Part shown: positions 2,241-59,440 of the stretch, piece by piece | Numbering within the stretch: position 1 is the stretch's first letter | Layout of the letters: each line of letters opens with the position of its first letter | Assembly: GCA_019931245.1 (NCBI GenBank) | Contig: JAINDL010000088.1 | Span: 1-59,441 of the forward strand | Direction: 5' to 3' | From: Bryobacteraceae bacterium CoA2 C42 | GTDB taxonomy: Bacteria > Acidobacteriota > Terriglobia > Bryobacterales > Bryobacteraceae | Length of the DNA stretch: 59,441 bases | The notes under the pieces: model-generated | Seen by the model: only the letters and a program-made list of their open reading frames with translations | What the model was told of the DNA's origin: nothing | Database searches by the model: none | Position numbers and translations under genes: made by a program

Positions 2241-3176
2241 ATGCAGGCCGTAAACATCGCGGAGGGTCGCATTCTGGTGGAGCAGGCCAAACGCCCCCGG
2301 CGCCCGCCGGGCTTTGCCCGGATCCGCCTGCTGCTGGCCGGGATTTGCAACACGGACGTGGAGCTACGGCGCGGCTACTACGGCTTCGCCGGACGCCCGG
2401 GTCATGAGTTCGTCGGGGTAGTAGAGGAAGCCGACTCGGCGCGCTGGGTCGGCAAGCGCGTGGTGGGCGACATCAACCTGGCGTGCGGAAGCTGCGATTG
2501 GTGCGCTCGCGGGCTGGGGCGCCACTGCCCGGCGCGGACCGTGCTCGGGATTGTCCGGCATCCGGGGGCCTTCGCCGAGTGGCTGACGCTCCCCGAAGAG
2601 AACCTCATCGCGGTCCCGGAGCATCTGAGCGATGAGGAGGCGGTGTTTTGCGAGCCCGTCGCCGCGGCCTGTGAGATCCAGGAGCAGTTGGGGCGGCTCC
2701 GGGGCGAGCGCGTGGCCGTGTTGGGAGATGGCAAACTCGGGCTGCTCATCGCTCAGGTGCTGCAGGTGGGCGGGGCGCAGGTGTCCCTGTTCGGCCGGCA
2801 TGCCGCCAAGATGGCCATTGCCGAGCGGGCGGGGGTCCGCCTCGGAGGCGAGGGCGAATTCGACGTGACGGTGGACGCCACGGGCTCCCCCGCCGGCCTG
2901 TCGACCGCCGTAGGGATGACCCGGGCTCGGGGGCGCGTCGTGATGAAGTCCACAGTAGCCACCCCGGTCTGTCTGGACATGGCGCCGGTCATCGTCCGGG
3001 AGATCAGCCTGATCGGGTCGCGCTGCGGGCGAATGGCGCCGGCCATGCGGCTGCTGGCCCGACGCCAAATCGAGGTGCGGGCGATGATCGCCGGCCGGTT
3101 CCCCCTGCGCGAGGCCGCCCGCGCCTTCCAACGGGCGGAGGAGAAGGGCTGCCTGAAGGTTCTCCTCCATCCGTAA
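2241..3176 (+). CDS. Zinc-dependent alcohol dehydrogenase-like protein (MDR family)
   Basis: 311 residues, short for the medium-chain dehydrogenase family (about 340-350) but with both domains. The GroES-like part has the catalytic-zinc set ICNTD (Cys about 36) and GHEF (about 54), and a structural zinc cluster CGSCDWCARG followed by RHC. The Rossmann part begins at VLGDGKLGLL and contains VDATGSP, typical of NAD(P)-dependent sorbitol/threonine dehydrogenase-like enzymes. The substrate cannot be told. It follows the terminase by 23 bases on the same strand and precedes a region of gene remnants. Its third codon positions are G-rich whereas the terminase before it is C-rich, suggesting a different history from its neighbour. 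Confidence 0.85.
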   Translation: MQAVNIAEGRILVEQAKRPRRPPGFARIRLLLAGICNTDVELRRGYYGFAGRPGHEFVGVVEEADSARWVGKRVVGDINLACGSCDWCARGLGRHCPARTVLGIVRHPGAFAEWLTLPEENLIAVPEHLSDEEAVFCEPVAAACEIQEQLGRLRGERVAVLGDGKLGLLIAQVLQVGGAQVSLFGRHAAKMAIAERAGVRLGGEGEFDVTVDATGSPAGLSTAVGMTRARGRVVMKSTVATPVCLDMAPVIVREISLIGSRCGRMAPAMRLLARRQIEVRAMIAGRFPLREAARAFQRAEEKGCLKVLLHP

Positions 3177-3324: not shown

Positions 3325-3881
3325 TTTCCTCTGAGCGAGGCCGCCCGCGCCGGGGCCAGCGTCCTGTGCTTCCCCGCATGCTACCTGCCTGGCTACCGCA
3401 ATCCCGATCGCCGGCTTCCGCCGTCCGGCGCCCGGACCCTCGAATCCGCCTGGACTACCCTTGCCGAGACCACCCGGCGCGCCGGTATACCCGTCATCGT
3501 CGGCACCGAACGCCTCGCGGCTCACGGCTTACACGCCGCCGCGTTCGTCCTCAACCCCGAGGGGGCCCGGGCGGGATTCGAGCACAAGGTGCCAATCGAT
3601 CCCTCCGAAGAGGGCGTCTACCCCCCGAGCCGGTCGCCATCTGCTTGCCGCCGCACCCTCCGGTTCGGCGTGACCATCTGTCATGAAGGCTCCCACTATC
3701 CGGAGACCGTCCGCTGGGCCGCCCGCCACGGCGCTCATCTCGGGCCGCCGAGAACGCCTGCTACTTCGCCACGGTCCGCTATGTGAGCAACCCTTCCGGC
3801 ACCCCCGGCCCTCTGCTGGCCGATCTCGATCTGATGCTGGCCACGAACCAGTTCGCCCGCCGCCACCGGCACGTTGACTGA
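3325..3881 (+). pseudogene. Carbon-nitrogen hydrolase (nitrilase family), broken
   Basis: Several nitrilase blocks are recognisable but no longer joined in one frame. From about 3325 the frame reads EAARAGASVLCFPACYLPGY and then IPVIVGTERL, FEHKVPID (candidate catalytic Lys) and VTICHEGSHYPE (candidate nucleophile Cys). The frame then fails near 3750. A second frame resumes with ENACYFATVRYVSNPSG and ends PLLADLDLML...RRHRHVD at the stop 3879-3881. Relative to intact relatives, the N-terminus and two internal blocks (after the Cys region and before LLADLDL) are missing. The gene must be non-functional. It collides at its left end with the LamG-like remnant on the other strand, which marks a deletion scar. 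Confidence 0.8.
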
Positions 3882-4320
3882 GCGGGAACCTTCCGGGCGA
3901 CCCGAGAGTCTGAACAGACGGCATGCTCACCTCCGCGCCGGCTCGCGTTTCGCTCCTGGTGGTTCTCGAAATACTGCTCTGTTGAACTAGCCCTTCCGGG
4001 ACCGGCTCACGAAGGTTTCCCCTCCGCTGCCGCGCACGAAGGAGCCTGCTCTGCAACTCGGCTTGGCCCTCTGCTGCGCCACCCTGTTTTGTCTCATTGC
4101 CCCGGCCACCCAAGGGCTCGCCACGCCGGATCGCCACCCCCGTCCTGGCTCTCCCCGACGCTCGGCGCCTGGAGTCTTCCCGGAAACCTGCTGGGTCTTG
4201 GCCTTCAGGCCTTCCGGTTCGATGGTTCGACACCATATCCCGTCCTCATCGTGGCCCTCAAGGCGCGGCTGTTGGCATACTACGCCGGATCGCCGCCCTC
4301 CTACTCTTCGCCCTCGCGCC

Positions 4321-4616
4321 AGGATTTCGTCCTGGAGCTTTACCTCGCTGCCGCTCCGGCCGTTGCCCTCGCCTGGCTGATCGGCCGCCAAACAAGCAGC
4401 CGGAAGGCCATCTGGCAGACCGGGGTCGCCGGCATCGCCGTTCCCCTGGCGCTCTCCGCTATCGGAAGCGGCATGGCGCAAACCGCCGGCCGGAATCTCC
4501 GCCCTTGGCCGAAAGTTCCCGGCGGATTCCTGATCGCCCCCCTGCGGCCCGCGGGTCTAGAATCGTGGATCTTTGGCGCCGTGGAGATCTGCGAGTTCTG
4601 CCCCCTGCTCGTCGCG
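4321..4616 (+). repeat. 296-bp direct repeat, copy 1
   Basis: The segment starting AGGATTTCGTCCTGG and ending CTGCTCGTCGCG recurs at 4661-4956. By eye the copies differ at 6 of 296 positions with no gaps. The period is 340 bp, leaving a 44-bp spacer. This copy is in frame with the upstream hydrophobic reading frame. Confidence 0.95.
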
Positions 4617-4660
4617 CGAAGCGCCGGCGTTCCGCCGGGAGTCTCCGGTCCCCTGGGGCC

Positions 4661-4956
4661 AGGATTTCGTCCTGGAGCTTTACCTCGCTGCCGCTCCGGC
4701 CGTTGCCCTCGCCTGGCTGATCGGCCGCCAAACAAGCAGCCGGAAGGCCATCTGGCAGACCGGGGTCGCCGGCACCGCCGTTCCCCTGGCGCTCTCCGCC
4801 ATCGGAAGCGGCATCGCGCAAACCGCCGGCCGGAATCTCTGCCCTTGGCCGAAAGTTCCCGGCGGATTCCTGATCGCCCCCCTGCCGCCCGCGGGTCTCG
4901 AATCGTGGATCTTTGGCGCCGTGGAGATCTGCGAGTTCTGCCCCCTGCTCGTCGCG
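4661..4956 (+). repeat. 296-bp direct repeat, copy 2
   Basis: Near-identical second copy of 4321-4616. In its own frame it encodes the same hydrophobic peptides, but that frame is shifted relative to copy 1, so the duplication broke the gene rather than lengthening the protein. The few differences imply the event is fairly recent. Confidence 0.95.
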
Positions 4957-10727: not shown

Positions 10728-11381
10728 GTGCTGAGACAGACTTCGCCAAATCAGAAGACCCAGCTGTACGTGCTGGAACAGTTTGTGTTGCATCAGGGGC
10801 CGCAGGGGCCGGCGGTGCACGAGTGGATACAGAATCGCTGGTTGCCGGCGCATCCGGGTCCGGCGCTGGTGCTCGATGCCGTGGTGGCGGCGCAGATGCC
10901 GCAGGTGGCGACGATCCGGGGCTACGGTTCGGTGGGGGAGTGGCTCGAGAGCCGGGTGGAGCCGCCGGCGACGGCGGATGCGTCGGTAACGCTGCTTGAG
11001 CCGACGAGTTATTCGCCGGAGTTGGAGTTGGGCGGTGGCGAGAAGGGCCGCATTTTTGAGATGCGGCTGTACCATTCGCCGTCCTGGCCGCAGTTGGAGT
11101 TGTTGCACGAGCGGTTTGCGGGCCCGGAGATTGGGATCTTCCACCGGCTGGGGATTCGGCCGGTGCTGTACAGCAGTACGCTGGCGGGCCAGCATCTACC
11201 CAACTTGGTGTACGTGACGCCGTTTGCCGACCTTGGGGAGCGGGAGCGGGCGTGGGGTGCGTTTATGGCTGACCCGGAGTGGCACCGGGTGCGGGCGGAG
11301 AGTGTGGAGCGGGGAGGGCAGATCTCGCAGTGGATGGAGATTACGCTGTGGCGGGCGGCGGGGTACTCGCCGGTGCGGTGA
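10728..11381 (+). CDS. NIPSNAP-family protein
   Basis: 217 residues. Two ferredoxin-like repeats of the NIPSNAP type can be seen: QLYVLEQFVLHQGPQG near the start and IFEMRLYHSPSWPQLELL in the middle, each followed by aromatic-rich strands; the end has WGAFMADPEWHRVRAESV, typical of the family. Function is unknown; relatives resemble dimeric alpha-beta barrel proteins. The start is GTG at 10728; a later in-frame GTG at 10767 is an alternative. The last codons and stop (YSPVR, TGA 11379-11381) lie in a 22-bp sequence repeated at 11871-11892, the site where a foreign segment entered. Confidence 0.8.
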   Translation: MLRQTSPNQKTQLYVLEQFVLHQGPQGPAVHEWIQNRWLPAHPGPALVLDAVVAAQMPQVATIRGYGSVGEWLESRVEPPATADASVTLLEPTSYSPELELGGGEKGRIFEMRLYHSPSWPQLELLHERFAGPEIGIFHRLGIRPVLYSSTLAGQHLPNLVYVTPFADLGERERAWGAFMADPEWHRVRAESVERGGQISQWMEITLWRAAGYSPVR

Positions 11382-11853
11382 GACCGACCTCTTTTCCCGC
11401 GAGTCGGCGGAGATCTTGAAGCGTCAAGTACGAAGCCTGAAGGCCCGCAAGGTCCCCGCTTAGCGCAACACACTGCAATCGCAATCCACGGTATTTGTTA
11501 AAAAGCATAACGCCCAACCACCGAAGTTGCCGATTGGAGAAGTATTGAGCGAACTGGTAGTCACCCCTCACGGGTTCTCCCGTAATGAGTAGAAGCATGT
11601 CCGCGACGGCAAAGACCGGCTTTTCGTCTTGTACGCAGGCTCGCAGCTGACTCCCAACGCGTTCTCGAATCCGTAACTCGCAGTCGACCGAATTGTATTC
11701 ATGACTGCCTTGATCGGTTCGCTCCCTAACTAATGCCAGAAGCTCGCAGCGCCTGCAGGTTAGCCTGTGGCGATGAGGTTGGCCGAGGCAGGTAGAACAT
11801 CGCCCATCAAGAACTCCCTGAAGCCGCTCATCGATTTGCGCATCTGTCAGCAT
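11341..11853 (-). CDS. Orphan zinc-ribbon-like protein, cargo of an insertion
   Basis: 170 residues from ATG 11853. Near the N-terminus lies a possible zinc ribbon, CSTC followed 14 residues later by CRRC (about residues 19-36), then a helical region with charged and aromatic residues (YFSNRQLRWLGVMLFNKYRG). The longer frame upstream of 11853 is a shadow of the next gene and was rejected. The base composition is clearly less GC-rich than neighbours. The last 12 codons (TAPASTPPPATA) come from the repeat and from the old 3' end of the neighbouring gene, so this gene acquired its C-terminus at insertion. I recognise no family; DNA- or RNA-binding would fit the zinc-ribbon pattern but is a guess. 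Confidence 0.6.
   Translation of the reverse strand: MLTDAQIDERLQGVLDGRCSTCLGQPHRHRLTCRRCELLALVRERTDQGSHEYNSVDCELRIRERVGSQLRACVQDEKPVFAVADMLLLITGEPVRGDYQFAQYFSNRQLRWLGVMLFNKYRGLRLQCVALSGDLAGLQASYLTLQDLRRLAGKEVGLTAPASTPPPATA
11360..11381 (+). repeat. 22-bp direct repeat, left copy
   Basis: Contains the NIPSNAP stop codon and, on the minus strand, the final residues of the cargo gene. It matches 11871-11892 at 21 of 22 positions (C versus T at the seventh base). The flanking bases differ on both sides. Confidence 0.9.
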
Positions 11854-11863
11854 CGGGCCAACG

Positions 11864-12103
11864 TCAAGAGGGGGTATTCGCCGGTGCGGTGATGCGGGTG
11901 GCGGGGATGCCCGCCCGGTGGAGGTTGTTTTCCACCTTGTCGATCGAGAGGCGGGAGGCGTCGTACTCGACCAGAATCTCGTCGAGCGAAGGCTGCAGTT
12001 TGATCTGCTCGATGCCATAGATGGCATGGGCGCGGTTGATGCGATTCATCAGAGCCTCGTCGACGGGCTTGAGCAGCTGGTAGCGGAGTTGAACGCGGGT
12101 CAT
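11864..12103 (-). CDS. Small metal-associated-domain-like (ferredoxin-fold) protein
   Basis: 79 residues, preceded by AGAGAG at the start. The pattern of strands and helices (VQLRYQLLKPVDEALMNRIN, GIEQIKLQPSLDEILVEYDA, VENNLHRAGIPATRI) resembles heavy-metal-associated/copper-chaperone folds, in which the late residues form the last strand. The CxxC metal motif is absent, so metal binding in the usual way is unlikely. Its 3' end was changed by the neighbouring insertion: the ancestral tail was probably ITAPASTPPPATA, and it now ends ITAPANTPS. A role with the metal efflux genes 3.5 kb away is possible but not shown by proximity alone. Confidence 0.65.
   Translation of the reverse strand: MTRVQLRYQLLKPVDEALMNRINRAHAIYGIEQIKLQPSLDEILVEYDASRLSIDKVENNLHRAGIPATRITAPANTPS
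11871..11892 (+). repeat. 22-bp direct repeat, right copy
   Basis: Second copy, now forming the last codons of the metal-associated-domain gene on the minus strand (ITAPANTP before a new stop). The 511-bp offset from the left copy equals the length of the inserted unit. Confidence 0.9.
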
Positions 12104-54026: not shown

Positions 54027-55607
54027 ATGCTGGAATTTCTCTCCCAACGGCTCCGCCGCCGCGACGCCCTCCGCGGTTCGGCCCTCGGACTGCTCACCGG
54101 CCTCGCGCCGGAAGAAGCGGCCGCCGCCCCCACCGCCGGCCTCCAACTCGGCGGCGGCATCTATGAATCCATCGGCGTGCAGCCGCTCATCAACGCCCGC
54201 GGCACCTTCACCATCATCAGCGGCTCCACCATGCTGCCCGAAGTCCGCTCCGCCATGGCCGAAGCCTCCCAGCGCTACGTCCACATCGACGAACTCATGG
54301 CCGCCGTCGGCGCCCGCCTCGCCGAACTCACCCAGGCCGAATGGGGCATGGTCAGCTGCGGCTGCTCGGCCGCCATCACCCACGCCACCGCCGCCTGCAT
54401 CGCCGGCGGCAACGCCGACCTCCACGTCCGCCTGCCCAACCTCGAAGGCTTCGCCAAAGACGAAGTCATCATCCCCAATCACTCCCGCAACGTCTACGAC
54501 GCCGCCGTCCGCGCCGTCGGCGCCAAGGTCGTCGAAGCAGGCACCGTCGAAGAGTTCGCCGCCGCCCTCGGCCCGCGCACGGCCATGGTCTACATCCTCG
54601 CCGGCCCCAACGCCGATAAAAGCCCGCTGTCCACCAAGGTCATCTGCGAGATGGCCAAAAAGCACAACGTCCCGGTCTTTGTCGACGCCGCCGCCGAAGG
54701 CCTCACCGTCCCCAACGTCCACCTCCAGGCCGGCGCCGACCTCGTCGCCTACAGCGGCGGCAAGTGCATGCGCGGCCCGCAGACGGCCGGGCTCCTGCTC
54801 GGCCGCAAAGACCTTGTCCAAGCCGCCTGGGTCCATAGCTCGCCCCACCACGGTTTCGCCCGCGGCCTCAAGATCGGCAAGGAAGAGGCTGTCGGCATGT
54901 TGATGGCCGTCGAAATGTGGAGAAAGCGCGACCACAAGGCCGAATGGAACGGTTGGATGGCCCGCCTCGACCACATCGCCAAACAGGTTTCCGCCGTCCC
55001 CGGCGTCACTACCTCGATTCGCCAGCCGGAGGGCCTGTCGAACAACACCCCGACGCTGGTCATCCAATGGGACGCCGCCAAAACCGGCGTCACCGGCCGC
55101 GCCCTCGCCCGCCATTTGTTCACGACGGCGCCCCGCATCGCCCTGCCCACCGGCGCCAGCGAAAACTCGATTCAGGTCGTGCCTTACATGATGGCCCCCG
55201 GTGATGAGAAAGTGGTGGCCGACCGCATCGCGGCTACGCTGAAGAACCCGCCCCCGGCCCCGCCCGCGACCAACGCCCCGGCCGCCGCTGACCTCTCCGG
55301 CCGCTGGGACGTCGAGATCGAGTACAGCGCCAGCAAGTCCACCCACGTGCTGCATCTCAAGCAGACCAACGGGCAGATTGAGGGCACCCATCAGGGCGAG
55401 TTTGTCTCCCGCGACCTGATGGGCCAGATGGAGGGCAACCGCGTGCGCCTGACGAGCAGCTACAGCGAGCGCCACGGCGACTCGCTGCAGTTCGAGTTCA
55501 CCGGCCAGCTCACCGGCGACCGGATTACCGGCACCCTGAGCATGGGCGAGTATCTGGACGCGAAATGGGTGGCCCGCCGCCACGTCAGCCGCGGGCGCCG
55601 CGGCTAG
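54027..55607 (+). CDS. Exported SelA-like PLP enzyme fused to a lipocalin-like domain
   Basis: 526 residues. A twin-arginine-like leader (LRRRDALRGSALGLLTGLA, residues 9-27) is followed by a fold type I PLP domain (about 45-410) of the SelA/D-glucosaminate-6-phosphate ammonia-lyase type: GVQPLINARGTFT, VSCGCSAAITHA, FVDAAAE (Asp220) and AYSGGKCMRGPQTAG with Schiff-base Lys246. After an Ala/Pro linker, the last 100 residues (LSGRWDVEIEYSASK, LKQTNGQIEGTHQGEF, FTGQLTGDRITGTLSMGEYL) look like a small lipocalin-like beta barrel. There is no sign of selenocysteine machinery, so selenium transfer is unlikely. The final codons and stop lie in the 88-bp repeat. Confidence 0.8.
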   Translation: MLEFLSQRLRRRDALRGSALGLLTGLAPEEAAAAPTAGLQLGGGIYESIGVQPLINARGTFTIISGSTMLPEVRSAMAEASQRYVHIDELMAAVGARLAELTQAEWGMVSCGCSAAITHATAACIAGGNADLHVRLPNLEGFAKDEVIIPNHSRNVYDAAVRAVGAKVVEAGTVEEFAAALGPRTAMVYILAGPNADKSPLSTKVICEMAKKHNVPVFVDAAAEGLTVPNVHLQAGADLVAYSGGKCMRGPQTAGLLLGRKDLVQAAWVHSSPHHGFARGLKIGKEEAVGMLMAVEMWRKRDHKAEWNGWMARLDHIAKQVSAVPGVTTSIRQPEGLSNNTPTLVIQWDAAKTGVTGRALARHLFTTAPRIALPTGASENSIQVVPYMMAPGDEKVVADRIAATLKNPPPAPPATNAPAAADLSGRWDVEIEYSASKSTHVLHLKQTNGQIEGTHQGEFVSRDLMGQMEGNRVRLTSSYSERHGDSLQFEFTGQLTGDRITGTLSMGEYLDAKWVARRHVSRGRRG

Positions 55608-55687
55608 CCTTTCTTCCGGTTCTTTTTCCCCTGGGCCCAGCTCTCCCACGGCGCAACGTTGGCGCGCTGGGCCCAGGCCTCCCATTT
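55600..55687 (+). repeat. 88-bp direct repeat, left copy
   Basis: Contains the PLP-enzyme stop and a non-functional duplicate of the last 27 codons of the sulfatase gene (minus strand). It differs from 57657-57744 at one position (GCGCAACG versus GCGCGACG). It is read as a partial gene copy, not as a coding feature. Confidence 0.95.
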
Positions 55688-55818
55688 GGCGGCAAAATGT
55701 ATTGCAAGCCACATATCCGAACAGCCTCGATCGGGTTACCGATTCTTCGCAGGTGCAACAGTCGGTACTAATCTAGCCACAGGACGCGATTCCTCCGTCA
55801 GTATGGTAAAAAACCTTT

Positions 55819-57105
55819 GTGGCGAGAATTGCAGTCATTGACGTGGAAACTACGGGACTCTGTGCATCCCGTACAGATCGGGTTGTTGAAATTGCTGTGG
55901 TTCTAATGGACGAAAAGGATGGAATCCTTGAGGAACTAAGTTCCTTGATCAATCCCGGCCGAGACGTTGGCCCCACGCGCATTCACGGGATCACTCCGAG
56001 CATGGTTAGAAATGCTCCAGGATTCGACGATGTGATCGGGCGTCTTTGCCAAATGCTTGGCGGAGCAGTAGCAGTTGCAGGACATAACGTCCGCTTTGAT
56101 CTAAGTTTTATTCACGCCGAATTCGAACGGGCAGGTTGCCCCCTGCCAGACATTCCCGCCTTATGCACCATGCGCCTCGCGGGCGGAGGCAAGCTGGAAA
56201 GAGTTTGTGTCGACTACGAAGTTCCCCGTCCGACCGTGGCCCACTCGGCTTTGGCCGATGCGAGGGCAACCGCCATGGTCTTACAGAAAATGTTAACCGC
56301 AGACCCCGAACTTGTCGCCTATGTGGAAGCTCTATCGGCGCCGCTTTGGCCAAGTCGTTCCGACCCCGGCTCAATACCTCTCGTCAGAAGGGTTCTCGAA
56401 ACCAGGAGCACCCCGGCCAGCACCTACCTGCAAACGCTTGCCCGAAGAATGCCTGGTATCAGTTACGGGCTGGAAATACCGGAACCAGCGCCCGATCCTT
56501 CCCCCCGCATAGCCTATGCCGCCTTACTCGCTCAGGCGATGGAGGATCGCAATATTGATGACGATGAGTGTAACGATTTACGCGCTCTCGCGGATCACTG
56601 GGGCCTCACGGTAGAGGAAATCTCCGCAATCCACCAGCAGTATCTACTGCAATTGCAGATCGCCGCCCTTGCGGATGGAGTGGTCACCGATGCGGAACGC
56701 GCCGATCTAAGACGTGCGGCCGAGGCTCTCGGGCTATCCGGTGATGCAGCCGAGCAGGCGCTTTCGGCAGCGCATGGAAAGATGCCCCAAAAGTCCTCCA
56801 ACGAAACAGCAAGGGTACCCGCCCCCACAAAAGGCGCAAATGAGTTGGCGTCGAAAATCGTTTGCTTCACGGGCGAATCGCTATGTCGTTTGCACGGGGA
56901 ATATATGTCAAGGTCGATGGCACTCACCTTGGCCGCCGAAAAAGGAATCAACATCACTGATTCGCTGACCAAGAAAGTGGACTTGTTGGTTGTGGCAGAT
57001 CCCCATACGCAGTCCGGAAAGGCACAGAAAGCGAGAAAGTACGGAATTCCGCTGATGGAAGAATTTCAGTTTTGGAGGGCTATCGGTGTACATGTCGAGT
57101 ACTGA
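55819..57105 (+). CDS. DEDDh exonuclease-TerB-BRCT protein (islet cargo)
   Basis: 428 residues, GTG start at 55819 placing the first strand at the N-terminus. An intact DnaQ-like 3'-5' exonuclease spans about 1-160: Asp8 and Glu10 (DVETTG), Asp94 (GHNVRFD), His142 and Asp147 (HSALADA). The middle (about 232-318) resembles a TerB domain, with ALADGVVTDAERADLRRAAE and an acidic MEDRNIDDDE. The C-terminus (about 341-428: IVCFTGES, LTLAAEKGINITDSLTKKVD, LLVVADP, KARKYGIPLMEEFQFW) is a BRCT domain. The set suggests DNA end-processing or repair. Composition is less GC-rich than in flanking genes, a sign of transfer. The downstream gene overlaps it. Confidence 0.85.
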   Translation: MARIAVIDVETTGLCASRTDRVVEIAVVLMDEKDGILEELSSLINPGRDVGPTRIHGITPSMVRNAPGFDDVIGRLCQMLGGAVAVAGHNVRFDLSFIHAEFERAGCPLPDIPALCTMRLAGGGKLERVCVDYEVPRPTVAHSALADARATAMVLQKMLTADPELVAYVEALSAPLWPSRSDPGSIPLVRRVLETRSTPASTYLQTLARRMPGISYGLEIPEPAPDPSPRIAYAALLAQAMEDRNIDDDECNDLRALADHWGLTVEEISAIHQQYLLQLQIAALADGVVTDAERADLRRAAEALGLSGDAAEQALSAAHGKMPQKSSNETARVPAPTKGANELASKIVCFTGESLCRLHGEYMSRSMALTLAAEKGINITDSLTKKVDLLVVADPHTQSGKAQKARKYGIPLMEEFQFWRAIGVHVEY

Positions 57106-57535
57106 GAACCGAAAAATTTATCGCTCAATCGCAGAACCCCTGCGCACGGGTCTTTCCTGGCGCGAAATGTGGCTCGGCCCCGACAATGGGCTAGTGTACT
57201 GTTGGGAGCGTGGTCGGCAGCTCATCATCGAATCCCCCGAGAGTTTTGAGAGGGTCAGCCGCGGGGAGTTGATCCCCCTTTGGTGGAGAGGGGGCGTTCA
57301 GAAAGCGCTGAAAAATCCAACCATGCCTAAGGATGGCACGCATCAGTACTTGGCCACATGGCTCGGAATGCGACAGCAGGACCTGGAGATCGATCTCGAC
57401 CAATCCTACTGTCTAACTTGTTCACGAACCGGACAGGTTGTTGAATTCTCCCCCTTTTCAAAATGGAAGGACGAGCCCGATAGAGAAGTTTCAGAAAGCG
57501 AAGTGCTCGATGCCTCTTCCTTCCATCACGGCTAG
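57086..57535 (+). CDS. Small uncharacterised partner protein (islet cargo)
   Basis: 149 residues. GTG 57086 is preferred because GGAGGG lies 6 bases upstream; ATG 57092 is 12 bases away and is the alternative. The frame overlaps the end of the exonuclease gene by 20 bases, so the two are translationally coupled. The protein has aromatic-rich segments (SWREMWLGPDNGLVYCWERG, IPLWWRGGVQKAL), a CLTC pair near residue 112 and an acidic tail. I recognise no family. Fixed coupling to a nuclease suggests a partner, inhibitor or adaptor, which is inference only. Confidence 0.7.
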   Translation: MYMSSTENRKIYRSIAEPLRTGLSWREMWLGPDNGLVYCWERGRQLIIESPESFERVSRGELIPLWWRGGVQKALKNPTMPKDGTHQYLATWLGMRQQDLEIDLDQSYCLTCSRTGQVVEFSPFSKWKDEPDREVSESEVLDASSFHHG

Positions 57536-57560
57536 CGCCAGTAGCCGCAACTTCCGCGAC

Positions 57561-57601
57561 AACCAGCCCCCGATCATGTTTTGAGATCGAGGGTACTGGT
57601 T
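57561..57601 (+). other. Stem-loop after the islet genes
   Basis: AACCAG pairs with CTGGTT and CGATC with GATCG around an internal loop, enclosing ATGTTTTGA. It lies 25 bases after the small gene stop. Only TGCTCTTCG follows, so it is at best a weak terminator. Confidence 0.35.
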
Positions 57602-57656
57602 GCTCTTCGATCGTTGGGCCTCCCTTGCTATCGAAGGGGTGGTGGCGCGTAACTCT

Positions 57657-57744
57657 GCGGCTAGCCTTTCTTCCGGTTCTTTTTCCCCTGGGCCCAGCTC
57701 TCCCACGGCGCGACGTTGGCGCGCTGGGCCCAGGCCTCCCATTT
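57657..57744 (+). repeat. 88-bp direct repeat, right copy
   Basis: The functional 3' end of the sulfatase gene. Identical to the left copy at 87 of 88 positions and offset by 2057 bp, the size of the inserted unit. Confidence 0.95.
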
Positions 57745-59301
57745 CGCCGCCATCGCCTTCACCCGCTCCGGCTGCGCCGCCGCCAGGTTGTTCAGCTCGG
57801 TCCGGTCGGCCTCGATGTCATAGAGCTCCCATTCGCCCTTATGGACTTTCACCAGCTTCCATTGGCCCATGCGAATGGCCTGGTTGCCTTCGTGCTCCCA
57901 GTAGATGGCCTCGTGCGGTGTCCGCCGTCCGGTGCGGAACACCGGCTCGAGACTCTTGCCCTCCATCGGATGGATCCGCTCGCCCTTCCAGCTGGCCGGA
58001 TACTTGGCCTTGGCGAGGTCGACGCAGGTCGCCATCAGGTCGATCAGATGGCTCGGCTCGCTCGACATGGCGTTGCGCCGCTTGATCACGGCCGGCCAGT
58101 GCGCCACCAGCGGGCTCGAAATCCCGCCCTCGTGCACCCAGTGCTTGTACATGCGGAAGGGCGTATTGGAGGCGTTCGCCCACGGCGTCGCGTAGCTCGT
58201 GTAGGTGTCCTCCGGGCCCGGCAGAATGTCCGGGGTATTGCCGTAGCGCACGGGGCGTCCGTCGCGCGTGGTCCGCGGTTTGATGGAGGTGTTCGGATTC
58301 TGGTTGGCCGGCGGGGCGTTCATGCCTTCGGCGCATCCCCCGTTGTCGGCAAAGAACAGGATCAGCGTGTTGTCGAGCAGCTTCTTCTGCTCGAGCGTCC
58401 GCACGACGCGCGCCACGGCCCGGTCCAGCCGGTCGACCATGCCCGCGTAGACGGCCATCCGCCGCGCCTCCCATTCTTTATCCGGGGCGTTCTCCCAGGC
58501 GGGCACCTCGCTGTCGCGTGGCGTCAGCTCCCAGTTGGTCTTCACGAGGCCCAGCTTCTTCTGTTTGGCGAACCGCTTCTGGCGCAGCGCGTCCCAGCCG
58601 TCTTTGTAGGTGTCTTTGTACTTGGCGACGGTCTCTTCCGGGCAATGCAGCGGCCAGTGGGGGGCGGTGAAGGCCATGTAGAGGAAGAAGGGGTCGGGCT
58701 TGGCGCTGAACTCTTCAATGTAGGCGACGGCGTTTTCGCCCAGCGCATCGGTGTAGTAGAACTCTTTGCTTTCCGGGTCGATGGTCTCGTTCTGCCGGGT
58801 TAGTGTCGCGGGGTTGTAGAAGCTGCCGGCGCCGTCGATGGTGCCGAAGAAGCGGTCGAAGCCGCGCTGGAGCGGCCAGTTGCCTTTATCGGCGCGGGAG
58901 CGCGGCGTCACGTGCCACTTGCCCGTCATGGCCGTCTGGTAGCCGGCCGTTTTCAAAACCTCTGCGATGGTGACGCAGCTCTTGTTCAGGTCGCCGCGAT
59001 AGCCGGGCAGCCCGTAGTCGTTCATCATGTGGCCGATGCCGGCTTGGTGCGGGTAGAGGCCGGTGAGGAGCGAAGCGCGCGTGGGGCAGCAGCGGGCGGT
59101 GTTATAGAACTGCGTGAAGCGGATGCCGTTGGCCGCGAGGCGGTCGAGGGTGGGTGTGGCGATCTCTGAGCCGTAGCAGCCGAGGTCGGACCATCCCATA
59201 TCGTCGGCCATGATCAGGACAATATTGGGCCGCTCCGGGGCGGCCAAGGCCGGCACGGCCGCCGAAGCGGCGGCGAGGCGAAGAAATTGACGGCGCTGCA
59301 T
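57661..59301 (-). CDS. Exported type I sulfatase
   Basis: 546 residues. A Tat-like leader (MQRRQFLRLAAASAAV) precedes the sulfatase fold. Asp33 and Asp34 (IMADDMGWSDLG) are metal ligands, and Cys71 in ARCCPTRASLLTG matches the CxPxR formylglycine site, so a maturation enzyme (anaerobic or FGE type) elsewhere is required. Later motifs include TGKWHVTPRS, VLFFADNGG-like LILFFADNGGCAEGM and GGISSPLVAHWP. It should hydrolyse sulfate esters, probably of polysaccharides. The last 27 codons lie in the 88-bp repeat and its stop formerly overlapped the PLP-enzyme stop. The other end faces the tRNA gene. Confidence 0.93.
   Translation of the reverse strand: MQRRQFLRLAAASAAVPALAAPERPNIVLIMADDMGWSDLGCYGSEIATPTLDRLAANGIRFTQFYNTARCCPTRASLLTGLYPHQAGIGHMMNDYGLPGYRGDLNKSCVTIAEVLKTAGYQTAMTGKWHVTPRSRADKGNWPLQRGFDRFFGTIDGAGSFYNPATLTRQNETIDPESKEFYYTDALGENAVAYIEEFSAKPDPFFLYMAFTAPHWPLHCPEETVAKYKDTYKDGWDALRQKRFAKQKKLGLVKTNWELTPRDSEVPAWENAPDKEWEARRMAVYAGMVDRLDRAVARVVRTLEQKKLLDNTLILFFADNGGCAEGMNAPPANQNPNTSIKPRTTRDGRPVRYGNTPDILPGPEDTYTSYATPWANASNTPFRMYKHWVHEGGISSPLVAHWPAVIKRRNAMSSEPSHLIDLMATCVDLAKAKYPASWKGERIHPMEGKSLEPVFRTGRRTPHEAIYWEHEGNQAIRMGQWKLVKVHKGEWELYDIEADRTELNNLAAAQPERVKAMAAKWEAWAQRANVAPWESWAQGKKNRKKG

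Positions 59302-59362: not shown

Positions 59363-59440
<78 letters not shown>

Follow-up and report, generated by a model that had tools for sequence, protein, structure and literature searches.

How a stretch of foreign DNA can come to lie exactly between two copies of a gene end, while the genes on both sides stay whole, is the question raised by a locus of Bryobacteraceae bacterium CoA2 C42 (contig JAINDL010000088.1 of assembly GCA_019931245.1). The window, i.e., the whole stretch of 59,441 nucleotides analysed here, holds an islet of 1969 bp (55688–57656) bracketed by 88-bp direct repeats, with an outer, left copy at 55600–55687 and an inner, right copy at 57657–57744. Comparison of related genomes makes it practically certain that this foreign two-gene islet was inserted at the junction of a pyridoxal phosphate (PLP)-dependent enzyme gene and a sulfatase gene, and that 88 bp of the junction now stand on both sides of it.

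The PLP-enzyme gene (54027–55607, plus strand) and the sulfatase gene (57661–59301, minus strand), both supported by open reading frame and Pfam match, are convergent, and both are open and complete despite the islet. The last 8 bp of the former fall in the left repeat copy, where they are followed by the 3' end of the sulfatase gene on the opposite strand, and the right copy lies within the complete sulfatase gene. The copies match at 87 of 88 positions, the single mismatch being at 55655 (A in the left copy, G in the right). The guanine-plus-cytosine (GC) content of the islet is 0.550 versus 0.661 in the rest of the window, and none of 1150 windows of the same size (step 50) is as low. The window sequence was searched against 41 genomes, its own (G000) included, 15 of which matched. 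Both flanks align in eight of the 18 relatives of the genus (G016, G010, G001, G009, G017, G012, G006 and G013), and in all eight the flanks, taken without the islet and one repeat copy, align as a single piece. The PLP-enzyme/sulfatase junction is thus single-copy and islet-free in 8/8, the two stop codons overlap in these empty sites, and in the two closest relatives, G016 and G010, the islet-free match is gapless over 1288 bp. The ten remaining genus relatives are uninformative on the insertion because both flanks do not align in them: in G004, G002 and G011 only the sulfatase side matches, and the other seven give no match. It is because the relatives show single-copy empty sites that the locus is read as an insertion with duplication of the 88-bp junction. 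The initial annotation, made from the letters of the window, had described the repeats, the duplicated junction of convergent genes with overlapping stops and the roughly 2 kb of lower-GC DNA between them, and all of this is borne out. It had also proposed looking in related genomes for the junction without the islet, and had held that an islet standing in the same place in all relatives would undo its reading; the relatives show the empty junction instead.

Two positions of the repeat bear on its origin. At position 26 both copies carry T, versus C in G016 and G010, while at position 56 (the mismatch just given) A is confined to the left copy, and the right copy, G016 and G010 have G. The T shared by both copies suggests that both derive from the allele of their own lineage; on this one informative site the duplication seems recent, with that allele as its source. 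Assembly error, the other danger the initial annotation had foreseen, is unlikely to have made the repeat, because the assembly word was probably longer than 88 bp and a one-base difference separates the copies. The longer word is suggested by a 3116-bp contig (L085, C7) of the same genome, assembled in 237 contigs and 97.7% complete; this contig has 141-bp identical ends and a protease-like gene, as named by inspection, and which is probably an assembly loop rather than a plasmid.

The cargo of the islet consists of two open, overlapping genes. The first (55819–57105, plus strand, 428 aa) has Pfam matches to an RNase_T/DEDDh exonuclease, to TerB (just under the Pfam cut-off) and to BRCT, and it matches the PADLOC profile PDLC05027 (PDC-S48) over its full length (residues 3–423, profile 5–406 of 411, E 1e-107). 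PDC-S48 is a candidate defence protein in PADLOC-DB 2.0, where membership marks a candidate and not a proven system, and the S in PDC-S names denotes a single-gene candidate. The window differs from this in its coupled small gene, which has no PADLOC match either here or in relatives. Residues D8, E10, D94, H142 and D147, which we take to be the DEDDh residues, are invariant among three aligned exonuclease sequences. Relatives of this protein are rare: with its own genome counted, they were found in 2/101 relatives (E 1e-20), in 2/396 genomes of the phylum (E 1e-30) and, by profile, in 3/257 genomes of the order (1e-40). The term PDC-S48 was not found in any paper (supplementary files lay outside the search), one passage of PMC12255303 is without PDC names, and a literature search on TerB, BRCT and exonuclease together returned a single, unrelated paper.

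The small partner gene (57086–57535, plus strand) encodes 149 aa from a GTG start or 147 from the ATG at 57092, and is without known family, no match having been found in Pfam, PHROGs, PADLOC or NCBIfam. Its AlphaFold model has a pLDDT of 81; no PDB or viral structure matched the fold at E 0.001 or better, and the best sequence match in the PDB reached only E 0.68. A relative of the small gene was found in 1/100 other genomes. Among 27 loci that carry one, including 15 viral contigs and phage PG1, an exonuclease or BRCT-containing gene adjoins it in 26, a count that includes L031, seen separately from the other 25, while L032 has none at E 0.001; these loci are not independent, because many of the small proteins are near-identical. 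Gene order is the same as in the window in genome G642 and in a viral contig (L134), where overlap of the two genes depends on the start codon chosen. Phage PG1 has a shorter partner protein, and the family phrog_3989 is common to it and to the second half of the window protein. In G642 (L156, C4:1-6000) the PDC-S48 pair is followed by an open frame (2353–3042) and a tRNA-Ala(GGC) (3423–3498). Taken together, the cargo looks like a two-gene antiviral defence system, as judged from its genes, and from this we infer a defence function in which the exonuclease-TerB-BRCT protein would sense and degrade phage DNA, with the small protein as a regulator or adaptor. The initial annotation was right about the intact exonuclease-TerB-BRCT gene, its coupled partner and the lack of any known mobility gene, which Pfam confirms for both genes; the defence-candidate identity of the cargo and its recurrence elsewhere lay beyond its view, so that its interpretation is partly supported.

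Repeats of this kind were sought by a direct-repeat scan (at least 35 bp, at least 85% identity, 0.2–12 kb apart; one of the scans slightly laxer) over 638 kb from 36 contigs of the window's own genome, the window included (about a tenth of that genome), 802 kb of G016 and 400 kb of G017. With near-tandem repeats, one contig-end overlap, repetitive extragenic palindromic (REP)-like repeats and one 35-bp pair 528 bp apart (L107) set aside, three cases are left: the window islet, a 499-bp repeat in G016 (C29) and a 67-bp repeat in G017. The repeats in G016 C29:124675 and in C28 of the own genome have a REP-like look and were not counted. The 499-bp repeat in G016 C29 (97% identical) corresponds to the 3' end of an S9 peptidase gene, and it surrounds an islet of 2081 bp whose PDC-S41 gene, for a Schlafen group 3 helicase, is divided over two open frames. 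This islet looks old, because G009 has the same PDC-S41 islet joined to its S9 peptidase gene (84% identity to G016 over 3795 bp of gene and islet) together with a decayed outer remnant of 74 bp. The 499-bp copies of G016 differ at 14 columns; the outer copy has the base of G017, G001 and G009, versus that of G010 in the inner copy, at columns 132, 141, 234, 240, 306 and 458, and the outer copy agrees with G010 at columns 104, 207, 378 and 459. G010 itself has the S9 peptidase gene, with no islet among the matches listed. PDC-S41 is present in 11/121 genomes of the family.

Brackets were also checked at 18 loci of the PDC-S41, PDC-S48 or exonuclease-BRCT type. Bracketing repeats were found at four (G071, G009, G469 and G577) and at none of the other 14, several of which are cut by contig ends; two of the four were counted, G071 and G009, the latter being the old G016-type case. 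Bracketing is therefore a minority state for these gene families. In G071, which belongs to another genus of the family, an islet of 2051 bp with one PDC-S41 gene is flanked by 77-bp repeats (94.8%), copies of an amidohydrolase-like gene's 3' end that finish 1 bp past its stop codon; no blastn match joins its cargo to that of G016. There are thus three defence-candidate islets between copied gene ends, of 1969, 2081 and 2051 bp, in two genera, and in all three the repeat block contains the stop codon and ends 1–27 bp past it. The literature listings searched showed nothing on islets bracketed in this way.

Other candidates were set aside. The module of G469 lies between repeats of up to 119 nt, which are dispersed (16 matches in the genome); of these copies, one overlaps the beginning of a transposase gene that we take, from the look of the protein, to be RAYT-like. 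In contigs C8 and C11 of that genome (L025, L077, L078) a repeat family of about 100–145 bp stands between small genes, presumably an acetyltransferase-type pair and a PDC-S48 pair, as named by inspection, and the whole looks like a cassette array on a transposase-derived repeat. The 47-nt repeat of G577 (79%) has its left copy 2 kb from the cargo. In G016 the PDC-S48 copy comes after a TonB-receptor-like gene and is broken across frames; at the end of the contig it passes into sequence present in several copies, and its brackets are therefore unreadable. What comes after the 3' end of that TonB-receptor-like gene differs between G016 (end of C75, L016), the own genome (start of C11, L060) and G010 (C333, L059): a PDC-S48 relative in the first, cas-like genes, as named by inspection, in the second and other genes in the third.

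A smaller case lies in the window itself. At 11360–11892 it differs in size from relatives by 489 bp, which lie between 22-bp copies (11360–11381 and 11871–11892, 21/22 identical) that end exactly at the stop codon of a NIPSNAP-domain gene; this DNA is absent from G016 and G010, and G009, G017 and G001 have extra DNA there. In contig C220 of G012 (L243, L272) an array of units of about 186 bp, each with about 45 bp of the NIPSNAP-domain gene end, lies downstream of that gene. Beyond the sulfatase gene the window has a tRNA-Pro(TGG) (59364–59440, plus strand), where its contig ends, and the third case of the repeat scan falls at a tRNA-Pro(TGG) in the same place beside the sulfatase gene in G017 (L227, C2:203021-211194), where a stretch of 8.1 kb lies between 67-bp repeats over it. 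The window also has a 306-bp near-tandem direct duplication (4311–4616 and 4651–4956), 97% identical and GC-rich.

How the islet got in is less certain than that it did. The reading placed first, itself held only tentatively, is that the resident gene end was copied locally, which produced the 88-bp duplication. At the hairpin-forming gene end, a DNA end or fork would switch to incoming DNA and, after copying the islet, would re-enter the chromosome about 88 bp behind the point of departure; a useful defence cargo would then be kept by selection. The enzymes involved in such a switch we infer, and do not observe. Local copying is put first because of the shared T allele, the varied block lengths (22, 77, 88 and 499 bp among the cases), the missing recombinase and the hairpin: the right 88-bp copy holds an imperfect one with arms of 24 nt (83%), and 0/200 and 1/200 shuffles fold as well as the 88-bp unit on its two strands. 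Insertions that duplicate the junction would be the surviving ones, because both overlapping gene ends stay intact. Several points weigh against it. The local origin hangs on position 26, a single informative site. The duplicated blocks contain the stop codon and end 0–27 bp past it in the four cases examined, which a random step back does not predict and selection explains only in part. In three cases an islet of about 2 kb contains a single defence candidate and hardly anything more, which has the look of a defined mobile unit. Finally, over 112 kb aligned with G016, an overlap of at least 12 bp is seen at only three of nine size differences (the window islet, the 22-bp NIPSNAP case and a REP-like one of 12 bp).

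Local copying is favoured slightly, and with low confidence, over integration of a circle that carries its own copy of the gene end and recombines with the resident one, its recombinase acting in trans or since lost, in the manner of prophage e14 at icd. This alternative is a possible but weaker candidate. The geometry is the same as that of e14 (PMC6379469), so that the initial annotation went too far in stating that neither usual model, transposon target duplication or tRNA-gene insertion, fits directly. The integration of a circle is also supported by the tRNA-Pro stretch of G017, across the sulfatase gene from the junction, and by the recurrence of the layout in another genus (G071); the stop-codon-linked block ends and cargo limited to one system favour both this and the crossover considered next. 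On the other side, the islet genes are without a recombinase domain, at E 1e-5 the islet DNA matches no record in either the plasmid or the phage collection, 0 viral contigs share an exact stretch of 22 nt with the repeat, the target genes differ even within one cargo family, and the copy on the element would need to carry the T allele of this very lineage.

Somewhat less probable, and on the whole doubtful, is a single RecA crossover of the Campbell type, in which a circularised conspecific fragment with gene end and islet recombined with the resident gene. It yields exactly the structure observed, and since G009 and G016 have the PDC-S41 islet attached to the same gene, DNA combining a gene end with an islet exists in the genus. 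That pair, however, looks inherited rather than transferred, and such a crossover accounts for the spread of an islet, not for its initial joining to a gene end. Transposition with an unusually long target duplication, the transposase acting in trans, is very improbable: long, variable direct repeats around cargo would fit it, but no inverted repeat of at least 16 nt joins the islet ends (shorter ones were judged by eye only), and the duplications range in length between 22 and 499 bp. The lack of a Ku (PF02735) match in the own genome makes it less likely that a staggered break was closed by end joining. Loss of an old islet from the relatives, or an assembly error, is the most remote explanation of all, for although direct repeats allow exact deletion and only some members of the genus have extra DNA at the S9-peptidase and NIPSNAP sites, every relative with both flanks is empty, the copies match almost completely and the likely assembly word exceeds the repeat in length.

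A broader hypothesis, to which only a small probability is given, would have integrase-less cassettes, about 2 kb long and carrying a single defence system apiece, enter the 3' ends of protein genes in this bacterial family, copying 22–500 bp by a dedicated joining process common to unrelated cargoes (the PDC-S48 pair and PDC-S41). For many defence genes, genomes show no sign of the route of arrival; here, the sharp ends of the islet and the empty sites make the joining readable base by base. If duplication of the gene end were a general signature, new defence genes could be sought by a simple rule, as low-GC DNA flanked by a gene 3' end in two copies. The coupling of PDC-S48 to a small partner without known fold also makes a two-gene system testable.

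Known systems close to the window islet include the PDC-S41 islets of G016 and G071, in which copied gene 3' ends likewise enclose about 2 kb with a single candidate defence gene, and which differ from the window islet in cargo and target gene. Integron gene cassettes are similar as small single-system units, and their attC sites carry paired RYYYAAC and GTTRRRY boxes. The 3' non-coding end of the islet (57536–57656) is structured, with two hairpins (folding z of −3.7 for the minus strand of 57536–57660), and neither a terminator-like site nor an RYYYAAC box was found in it; GTTRRRY occurs at 57440 and 57613, and RYYYAAC at 57315 and 57411. An integron cassette was rejected, as there are no paired boxes at the islet end and no integron integrase (TIGR02249) over cut-off in any of five genomes, the own included. 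The non-coding ends of the islet showed no further copy in the own genome and 40 relatives (best seven first-look candidates per genome). Nor does the islet resemble a DDE transposon or insertion sequence, since it has neither the inverted repeats just mentioned nor a short duplication. A close parallel is e14 (PMC6379469), a 15,204-bp prophage with site-specific integration at icd of E. coli, which keeps the gene whole and leaves behind a duplicated 163-bp pseudo 3' end of it. The window islet is only 2 kb long and, by Pfam, neither of its two genes has a recombinase domain, so that it has no integrase of its own; with its gene-end direct repeats, intact gene and single-copy empty site, it shares with e14 the geometry of an element set beside the 3' end of a protein gene that stays intact.

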